DNA of 57,713 nt from Collinsella aerofaciens (lineage in GTDB: Bacteria; Actinomycetota; Coriobacteriia; Coriobacteriales; Coriobacteriaceae), in NCBI RefSeq assembly GCF_015557435.1, contig NZ_JADNOH010000041.1, positions 1 through 57,713 of the forward strand, given 5' to 3'. A program made the position numbers and the translations under genes. Position 1 is the first letter of the stretch; each line of letters starts with the position of its first letter. Below the pieces are notes generated by a model that was given only the letters and a program-made list of their open reading frames with translations, had not been told where the DNA came from and did no database searches. Positions 45,499-50,497 of this stretch are shown here, piece by piece.

Positions 45499-45927
45499 TT
45501 ATTTCTTAGCGTGCTTGCCAGCACCCTTGCTGTCATCGGTGACCGAGATAAGCTGTCGGTCGGCAGCGCCGTTGCGACGCGCGCGGCGGCGCTCCTCGGC
45601 GTCGCCCGCATCGGCGGCGGCGCGGTGAGCTTTGTTGACGTTAAAGACCTCGTCATGTTTGCGCCACGGGCCAACGGACTCGCCAAAGCTCATCTTAAGG
45701 CCGGCGATAAAACCGCCGAGCCAGCCGATCGGCGCAAACTGCACCAGCGGGAACAGCGAGAACACCCAGGTCAGCAGGATGACTGCCGCCGCACCCGCAA
45801 AGTTGGCGATCCAGTAGTCGCGCTTGGTGATCACGCGCTTTTCGCAAGCCCACTGGCCGCACAAAAAGCCAATGTAGATCGCAAAGATAAAGAGCACCAG
45901 CGCGAGCACCACGAACGTCCAGCTCAT
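45499..45927 (-). CDS. Small membrane protein of unknown function
   Basis: 142 residues with two membrane segments (about 2-23 and 36-63) and a long basic cytoplasm-like C-terminus (HRAAADAGDAEERRRARRNG...). The start at 45927 (MSWTFVV) has AGGAG upstream; the frame is open to 45963 but overlaps the upstream gene. It starts 5 bases after the upstream reductase gene, so the two are probably coupled. No family recognised. Confidence 0.6.
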   Translation of the reverse strand: MSWTFVVLALVLFIFAIYIGFLCGQWACEKRVITKRDYWIANFAGAAAVILLTWVFSLFPLVQFAPIGWLGGFIAGLKMSFGESVGPWRKHDEVFNVNKAHRAAADAGDAEERRRARRNGAADRQLISVTDDSKGAGKHAKK

Positions 45928-45932
45928 GGGCG

Positions 45933-47012
45933 CTACTCCTCGTGATGATGGCCGCAGCAGCACTCATGGCCGTCATCGTGGCCGTGACCGCCGCAGCACT
46001 CGTGGTCCTCGCCGTGGTGGTGGCCGCAGCCGCACTCGTGGTCGTCGCCGTGTTCACCGCAACCGCAGCCGTCCTCGTGGGCACCGTGCTCCTCGGGGCG
46101 ATACTGCGACCAGTCCAGACCGGCGGCAATGGCGTCGGCCTCCTCCTTGTAGAGCACCGTGATGGCCTGGGTGCCCAGCTTGGCGCCACCGATGGCGTCG
46201 AGCATGTCGTAGAGCGTAAAGGCCACGTCGGCGCCGGGCAGCGCGAGCTCGCGGTCGTCGGCGTAAGCGAGTGCCAGGCGCAGGTCCTTAATGAAGTGCT
46301 CAACCATAAAGCCGGGCTTGTAGTCGCCGTCGAGCGCCTTGGGAGCGAGGCTCTCCATGGCGCCGGACTTGCCGGTACCGCCCAGGATCATCTCGCGGGT
46401 CTTCTCCAGATCCAGGCCGTTGAGCTCGGCAAATGCCATGGCATCGGCCATGCCGACCATGCAGGCGCCCAGCGACACCTGGTTGGCGAGCTTGGCTGCC
46501 TGGCCCTTGCCGGCACCATCGAAGCAGCAGATGTTGGCCGCGAAGGTGGCCAGGATGTCGCGGACCGGGGCGATGTCGTTCTCGGTGGCGCCAACGATAG
46601 CCGTGAGCGTGCCGGCGATCGCACCCGACTCGCCGCCGGTGACGGGGCAGTCAAACGCCATGCGGCCGGAGACCTGGGCGGCCTCGGCAATGTCGCGGGC
46701 GAGCTCGGGCGAGCTCGTGGTGAGATCGATCAGGACCGCACCGGGCTTGGTGCAGGCCAGCAGACCGTCGCCCGCCAGGTAGAGCTCCTCGACTTCGGAG
46801 GGATAGCCCACCATGGTAAAGACGACATCGGCGTTTGCCGCGGCCTCGGCCGGCGTCTCGGCCCAGACGGCGCCGCGCTCGACGAGTGCAGCGGCCTTGG
46901 ACTTGGTGCGGTTGTTGACCGTGACGGGATAGCCGGCGTCCAGGATGTGGCCGGCGATGGGGGCACCCATGATTCCGGTGCCGATGAATGCGACGGAGAG
47001 CTTGTTTGCCAT
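45933..47012 (-). CDS. Beta-hydroxyacid dehydrogenase (GarR/MmsB-like) with a His/Cys-rich tail
   Basis: 359 residues. The Rossmann motif FIGTGIMGAPIAGHIL (9-24), the substrate loop DCPVTGGESGA (121-131) and the catalytic Lys174 in GKGQAAKLANQ define a 3-hydroxyisobutyrate/tartronate-semialdehyde reductase-type NAD(P) enzyme of about 305 residues. The last 53 residues are an added tail with 14 His and 9 Cys (CGCGEHGDDHECGCGHHHG..., ECCCGHHHEE). The tail probably binds metal. The start at 47012 has AAAGGAAAGG. First gene of a run down to isocitrate dehydrogenase. Confidence 0.82.
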   Translation of the reverse strand: MANKLSVAFIGTGIMGAPIAGHILDAGYPVTVNNRTKSKAAALVERGAVWAETPAEAAANADVVFTMVGYPSEVEELYLAGDGLLACTKPGAVLIDLTTSSPELARDIAEAAQVSGRMAFDCPVTGGESGAIAGTLTAIVGATENDIAPVRDILATFAANICCFDGAGKGQAAKLANQVSLGACMVGMADAMAFAELNGLDLEKTREMILGGTGKSGAMESLAPKALDGDYKPGFMVEHFIKDLRLALAYADDRELALPGADVAFTLYDMLDAIGGAKLGTQAITVLYKEEADAIAAGLDWSQYRPEEHGAHEDGCGCGEHGDDHECGCGHHHGEDHECCGGHGHDDGHECCCGHHHEE

Positions 47013-47104: not shown

Positions 47105-48058
47105 CTACTCGCCACGCACACGGCGCGCGATGCGATCGGAAAGCGAGGCCTTCTCGGCGCGGTTCTTGCCCCAAAACGCGCAAGCCACCATGCCGGGGCC
47201 CACGTGCGAACCGATGGTGGGGCCCACGGAGCTGCGGATGATGGTGATGTCGGCGCAGCCTTCCTCCTTGCGGATGGCGGCCTCGAGCCAGTCACCGTCC
47301 TTCTCGGCGTCGGCCGTCATGATGGCGATGGGCATGGTGCGATCGGGCACGTAGTTCTCGCGGAACGACTTGAGGATGGACTTGAGCGCCTTCTTGCGGC
47401 CGCGGTTGACACCGATCAGCGACAGCGAGCCGGCAAGGTCGTAGGAGAGCTCGGGCTTGACATCGAGCTTTGCCGTGAGCTGCGCCGCCGCGGGCGGAAT
47501 GCGGCCGCCGGCAGCCAGCGCGTCAAAGCTCTCGAGCGTAAAGTAGCCGTGGACATAGGTCTTGGCCTCGTTTGCCCAATCGACCAGCTGCTTGGCGGTC
47601 AGTCCCGCCGAACGCTGGCGCACGGCCTCGAGCGCCAAGAGCGCGCCGGTCGCGCAGGGCAGAGCGTTGTCGACCACGTAGAGCTCAAAATCGGGATACT
47701 CGGCGCGCACGGCGTCCGCCGCCTGGCACGCGGAGTTGTAGCTCGACGACAGCGCCGAGGTAAAGCACAGGTAGACCGTGGGCGTGCCCTCTTTGGCGCA
47801 CTCGGTAAAGAACTCGATATAGCGACCGAGCGACACAGCCGAGGTGGACACGCGGGCACCGGCGCGCATCCGGTCGTAGAACTCCTTGGGTGTGATGCTC
47901 GACCAGATGTCGTCCGTGCGCTCTTCGCCATCGATAATGAAGGGGAAACCCAGGATATCGACATCGAGGTTCGCGGCGACCTCGGGGCTAAAGTCGCAGC
48001 AGGTATCGACGACGATGCGGCAACGGTCCGAATGACCGGCGGATGCGGCCTTGTCCAT
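47105..48058 (-). CDS. DegV-family fatty-acid-binding protein
   Basis: 317 residues from ATG 48058 (AAGGAG upstream; a TTG one codon earlier is possible). DegV landmarks: RIVVDTCCDFSPEVA near 14-28, GARVSTSAVSLGRYIEFF near 67, CFTSALSSSYNSA near 98, and ASLSDRIARRVRGE at the end with GSHVGPGMVACAFWG near 285. DegV/FakB proteins bind fatty acids, in some species for FakA kinase. No fakA is seen here. Confidence 0.88.
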   Translation of the reverse strand: MDKAASAGHSDRCRIVVDTCCDFSPEVAANLDVDILGFPFIIDGEERTDDIWSSITPKEFYDRMRAGARVSTSAVSLGRYIEFFTECAKEGTPTVYLCFTSALSSSYNSACQAADAVRAEYPDFELYVVDNALPCATGALLALEAVRQRSAGLTAKQLVDWANEAKTYVHGYFTLESFDALAAGGRIPPAAAQLTAKLDVKPELSYDLAGSLSLIGVNRGRKKALKSILKSFRENYVPDRTMPIAIMTADAEKDGDWLEAAIRKEEGCADITIIRSSVGPTIGSHVGPGMVACAFWGKNRAEKASLSDRIARRVRGE

Positions 48059-48076
48059 CAAAGCGACTCCTTACGT

Positions 48077-50065: not shown

Positions 50066-50284
50066 GTCCACTACCCTGCCTTCTGTGTCGTATACGATCC
50101 GTGCGTTGCGCGGAATATCAGGTTGTTCCCACCAGCTGACCTGGTATTTGACCCCACACTTGCGCACCGGGGTGTTTGCTCGGGAGGCCGCAGCCACCTT
50201 CACGACTGGCCCGCTCGCCCGCGAGGCGGTATTGCCCCAAAGAAAGTAGAACGGACGGTGCGGCTTACATCTAGGACGCGCCAT
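50066..50284 (-). other. In-frame upstream stretch with protein-like sequence
   Basis: In the frame of the solute-binding protein, the region from a possible ATG at 50284 reads as plausible protein, including VKYQVSWWEQPDIP and RNARIVYDTEGRVVD. It has no good ribosome site at 50284. It may be a leader ORF, an N-terminal cytoplasmic extension, or chance. Confidence 0.3.
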
Positions 50285-50497
50285 GATCGCGCCGCGCGCA
50301 CGCGGTCGCTTACGTGGATCCCTTTGACCGCGTCTGTCTTGGACTAGGACGGGCATTTCGTCCGTCCGCAACCACAGCCTGGTAGGAACGAAGCGCATTA
50401 TAGCTAAGTTCAAGCTAAAGTTTAAGGTTAGGGGCGTCATTCGCATCGCGAGTACAGATTTTGCGGGTCGGAGCGGACCATTCGTGCCCCTATGAAG

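Follow-up and report, generated by a model that had tools for sequence, protein, structure and literature searches.

A conserved His/Cys-rich, putatively metal-binding tail on a beta-hydroxyacid dehydrogenase of Coriobacteriaceae and Atopobiaceae

Introduction

The GroES protein of Helicobacter pylori (HspA) has a His/Cys-rich C-terminal tail that binds nickel, and deletion of this tail leaves cells with less intracellular nickel and greater sensitivity to the metal (PMC3856676). Escherichia coli SlyD binds up to seven Ni(II) ions, and this binding reversibly inhibits its isomerase activity (PMC7055735).

We analysed a stretch of 57,713 nucleotides from Collinsella aerofaciens (contig NZ_JADNOH010000041.1, hereafter the window), which encodes a beta-hydroxyacid dehydrogenase with a tail of this kind. 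Coriobacteriia are common gut and oral anaerobes, and to our knowledge metal storage in this class has been little described. The literature search found no paper describing a tail of this type, either for this enzyme family or for Collinsella.

Results

Gene and enzyme core

The dehydrogenase is encoded on the minus strand of the window by a complete coding sequence of 359 aa (45933..47012), which runs from an ATG at 47012 to a TAG stop at 45935-45933 and has a ribosome-binding site (AAAGGAAAGG) just 5' of the ATG. It is present as one copy in its own genome, and its closest public relatives, with 96–98% identity, are from C. aerofaciens and Collinsella sp. Translation recovered exactly the 14 His and 9 Cys in the last 53 residues that the initial annotation had reported. 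Its coordinates (45933-46091) located the tail but counted the stop codon and were offset by one codon; the tail (residues 307–359) occupies 45936..46094 on the minus strand. With the His and Cys frequency of the core (7/303) as expectation, the binomial probability of at least 23 such residues in 53 is 7e-24. Since the same tail was read in nearly all Collinsella species genomes (see below), it is no sequencing or frame artefact, and the observation is confirmed as correct and biologically real.

The enzyme core (residues 1–306; 46095..47012, minus strand) consists of a Rossmann and a helical domain and matched the Pfam domains NAD_binding_2 (E 2e-46) and NAD_binding_11 (E 3e-27), both above the curated cut-offs. 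These two domains, together with the PV[TS]GG motif (here PVTGG), the catalytic Lys and a nearby Asn, place the protein in the beta-hydroxyacid dehydrogenase superfamily. Gly126/Gly127, Lys174 and Asn177 were invariant in 16 homologues, and AlphaFold2 pLDDT was >90 across most of the core; conservation and predicted structure both indicate that the core and its active site are intact. The best PDB match was the NADP-bound L-serine 3-dehydrogenase of Pyrobaculum calidifontis (about 40% identity in the structural alignment), and Lys174 aligned with the lysine mutated in structure 3w6z (K170M). The NNRTKSK segment is similar to the NRT of the NADP-bound enzyme, a resemblance by which the dehydrogenase is probably NADP-dependent. 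No curated NCBIfam cut-off was reached for the GarR, 3-hydroxyisobutyrate dehydrogenase (HIBADH) or threonate dehydrogenase equivalogs, the best equivalog score being 198 bits against a cut-off of 341 (tartronate semialdehyde reductase). Pfam detected no FKBP domain in the tailed dehydrogenase, which does not belong with SlyD.

Repeat structure, predicted disorder and selection

The tail is predicted to be intrinsically disordered (AlphaFold2 pLDDT <50 exactly over residues 308–359, with the onset at 308), and it had no match in Pfam and no sequence match among solved structures. Tandem Repeats Finder identified a 36-bp tandem repeat of 2.8 copies (45952..46052, minus strand) that encodes a 12-residue unit around HECxCGHxH. 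Across tails, the spacing of Cys motifs peaked at 12 residues, and HECCGGH, HECGCGH and HECCCGH were the commonest units. Tail length ranged from 30 to 103 residues among relatives, shifting in units of ~12 residues with the composition kept. The mean composition of 106 tail sequences (loci with >50% identity, some of them redundant) was 24% His, 22% Gly, 14% Cys, 14% Glu and 12% Asp, with 3% hydrophobic residues.

Across the close group (24 distinct coding sequences), dN/dS of the tail was 0.04, equal to the core value, and synonymous divergence was about twice as high in the tail as in the core. Twelve of the 23 His/Cys codons of the tail showed only synonymous variation, nine were invariant, and two were changed in single sequences. 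The tail, including its His and Cys positions, is under strong purifying selection, which makes it a His/Cys-rich, predictedly disordered terminal extension maintained by selection. Some relatives had His-only or Cys-only tails, as would be expected if the metal ligands were interchangeable.

Distribution and origin of the tail

The tail was present in 42 of 43 Collinsella species genomes, the exception being G028, and in 17 of 18 loci of other Coriobacteriaceae genera, with a reduced form in G188. In Atopobiaceae (Atopobium, Olsenella, Tractidigestivibacter and others) it was common but patchy, and His-only, Cys-only and tail-less forms occurred. The listed genomes of family f3 (by inference Eggerthellaceae) had no orthologue at E 1e-30, and the tail was missing from orthologues in the class's other orders as well as in Bacillus, Gemella, Selenomonadales and Proteobacteria. 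The initial annotation had called the tail unusual for this enzyme family and had proposed a search across Coriobacteriia: the statement holds for the family at large but not for Coriobacteriaceae and Atopobiaceae, whose close orthologues carry the tail as a rule.

In a quick tree of 139 cores with many weak forks, a clade of the two families comprised 82 dehydrogenases with His/Cys tails, six with His-only tails, three with Cys-only tails and 15 without a tail. Its deepest branches were also tailed, and parsimony gave 14 changes. A single deep gain followed by several losses or reductions appears most likely from this tree, and the repeated loss suggests that the tail is not essential in every niche. 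In deeper families of the order, dehydrogenase orthologues or paralogues (L203, L212, L215–L218) ended in a shared C-terminal motif like [FY]FSxN, preceded by a linker that was acidic and in some cases His-rich.

Gene neighbourhood

The gene order HPF, DegV, dehydrogenase, often a membrane protein, and HEAT-repeat protein was kept among relatives, which argues for vertical inheritance of the locus. The upstream DegV-family gene (47105..48061, minus strand) is a conserved neighbour. The downstream gene (45502..45927, minus strand) begins 5 nt past the dehydrogenase stop and encodes a predicted small membrane protein of 142 aa with no Pfam match; it is conserved, in the same order, in most relatives. 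In genome G120 the stop codon was lost (TAG to GAG compared with L140), and the tailed dehydrogenase and the membrane-protein ORF were fused in frame into one ORF of 489 aa (L145), in which a sequencing error is possible.

Neither metal genes nor known metal-responsive elements were found next to the dehydrogenase gene, and the upstream DNA of 15 relatives, compared by eye, contained a ribosome-binding site and no obvious common operator. No riboswitch or RNA family was found near the gene; the only matches in the window, to a raiA RNA and to a tRNA, lie away from it. The raiA RNA (RF03072, 145.9 bits; 50127-50387, minus strand) shares its strand with the HPF, DegV and dehydrogenase genes and precedes them by a few genes.

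Similar repeats on other proteins

In Collinsella genomes, a DNA motif for HECxCGHxH had no match outside the dehydrogenase gene. A looser motif searched over the class matched two further proteins, an MBL-fold hydrolase and a P1B-type heavy-metal ATPase. Other motif matches in the own genome (C59) and in the tail-less G028 (C16) fell in unrelated or unlikely reading frames and were rejected as chance. The MBL-fold hydrolase is nearest to hydroxyacylglutathione hydrolase, far under the cut-off of that family. It bore an N-terminal Cys-rich extension in 16 Atopobiaceae genomes of eight genera, usually rich in His too and with CCGGH-type repeats. The loci with this extension were L272, L273, L274, L279, L286–L291, L293–L296, L310, L312, L314–L316 and L320. 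In genus g24 the extension was found where the dehydrogenase tail was absent; complementarity between the two gave no phylogeny-aware association. The P1B ATPase had a long His/Cys-rich N-terminus, a feature of a familiar kind on such ATPases, at L270 and L271 (G336 and G180) in genus g35, whose dehydrogenase is tail-less.

The three carriers are unrelated, have their repeats at opposite termini, and two of the three are metal proteins. Because a similar repeat occurs on the unrelated MBL-fold hydrolase, the module does not depend on the chemistry of a dehydrogenase. The repeats of the hydrolase and the ATPase may share descent with the dehydrogenase tail or may have arisen in parallel, origins that are hard to separate at such low complexity.

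Association with nickel genes

The initial annotation had also named nickel and a metallochaperone fusion among the readings of the tail, with a check for co-occurrence with metal genes; the nickel and metallochaperone part found no support in HypB, in LarC or in the gene neighbourhood. Among 58 genomes, HypB was encoded in 21 of 35 tailed and 15 of 23 other genomes (p=0.79), LarC was commoner in tail-less genomes (p=0.002, uncorrected), opposite to the proposed direction, and 14 tailed genomes had neither gene. Phylogeny-aware pairs, which were few, gave no link of HypB or LarC to the tail. The own Collinsella genome has both genes. Given the lack of association and the 14 tailed genomes with neither gene, nickel enzyme maturation via HypB or LarC routes does not explain the tail, and the link to nickel enzymes or maturation genes that would mark a nickel metallochaperone was not found through these two genes. 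Substitution for SlyD by the tailed dehydrogenase was considered and rejected: SlyD-type FKBPs were tail-less in 30 of 30 cases checked, in tailed and untailed lineages, with no complementary pattern.

Discussion

With modest confidence, we propose that the tail is a metal-buffering extension, most likely for zinc, on a carrier enzyme. It would be a selected, disordered and multidentate metal-binding extension on an intact dehydrogenase, and would buffer or store a borderline or soft divalent metal inside the cell, with zinc the likeliest and nickel, cadmium and copper possible. The 12-residue units (HECxCGHxHGED) would provide Cys thiolates and His imidazoles, Asp and Glu would keep the tail soluble, and each chain could hold several ions, to be released to apo-metalloproteins or kept harmless, with the enzyme serving mainly as carrier. 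The general metal-binding reading of the initial annotation thus keeps the support of composition, selection on His and Cys, predicted disorder and a similar module on another enzyme, but loses its nickel part. From these features we infer metal binding, the metal and the buffering role; zinc seems the most plausible remaining metal, given the mixed Cys/His ligands, the universal need for it and the membership of the MBL carrier in a metal-hydrolase superfamily, and partly because nickel lost support.

Two other functional readings are, in our judgement, unlikely. The tail could be a nickel reservoir or chaperone for nickel enzymes, as SlyD and HypB are with [NiFe] hydrogenase, or for the LarA pincer cofactor; its composition is like that of nickel-binding tails and its own genome encodes HypB and LarC, but across the 58 genomes HypB was indifferent to the tail, LarC was commoner in tail-less genomes before correction, 14 tailed genomes lacked both genes, and the few phylogeny-aware pairs gave no link. 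Metal or a disulfide in the tail could instead switch the dehydrogenase or its assembly, which would parallel the reversible inhibition of SlyD by Ni(II) (PMC7055735) and suit the many thiols in an obligate anaerobe; against such a switch, a similar module sits at the other terminus of an unrelated hydrolase, and tail length varies freely, or the tail is lost, while the core remains conserved. A detoxifying role, in which the tail would take up Cd, Cu or excess Zn much as a metallothionein does, is more doubtful still. The several Cys-containing units per tail and the His/Cys-rich P1B ATPases of the tail-less genus g35 agree with it, and by sequence it is hard to tell from buffering, but the carrier is a housekeeping enzyme in a conserved neighbourhood without resistance genes.

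It is very improbable that the tail serves localisation or the binding of a partner such as the membrane protein encoded downstream: the 5-nt spacing and the G120 fusion would fit, but in several genomes the tail is present with no recognisable homologue of the downstream gene, and in some the reverse holds. A neutral, functionless expansion of a low-complexity repeat would leave a 36-bp repeat and tails of differing length among species, but it is scarcely compatible with the low dN/dS, the retained His and Cys and the persistence of the tail across most of two families.

If the tail does bind metal, some of the zinc (or nickel) of a very common gut genus would be stored on an enzyme of metabolism. 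The comparable repeat on the MBL-fold hydrolase, which is unrelated, hints at a cassette for metal binding that different enzymes can carry. It is a tentative extension of this idea, and one we consider less likely than not, that Coriobacteriales use a transferable 12-residue His/Cys cassette on different housekeeping enzymes as a distributed cytosolic metal store, replacing tailed SlyD or stand-alone metallothioneins. In practice, nickel columns may retain the recombinant tailed dehydrogenase even when it has no tag.

The Collinsella enzyme shares its fold, cofactor domain and catalytic Lys and Asn motifs with described beta-hydroxyacid dehydrogenases (the NADP L-serine 3-dehydrogenase 3w6u, GarR and 3-hydroxyisobutyrate dehydrogenase), but its His/Cys tail had no counterpart in the homologues seen outside the order. 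What is probably new is the carrier, a dehydrogenase whose His/Cys-rich, putatively metal-binding extension is conserved across two families; extensions of this type are already known. SlyD, an FKBP with a His/Cys/Asp/Glu-rich C-terminal tail, is similar in the type of composition, the position and the variable length of the tail, but its FKBP domain is absent from the dehydrogenase, and the SlyD-type FKBP of the own genome is tail-less. The His-rich C-terminus of mycobacterial GroEL1 is likewise a flexible, metal-binding tail on a housekeeping protein, but it is short, has no Cys repeat in the peptides studied and was examined with Cu(II) (PMC10170517). By analogy, the closest parallel appears to be H. 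pylori HspA, which likewise has a C-terminal extension rich in metal ligands on an ordinary housekeeping protein; there the carrier is a chaperonin, whereas here it is a dehydrogenase with a tail of 12-residue repeats and no nickel-enzyme link found through HypB or LarC.
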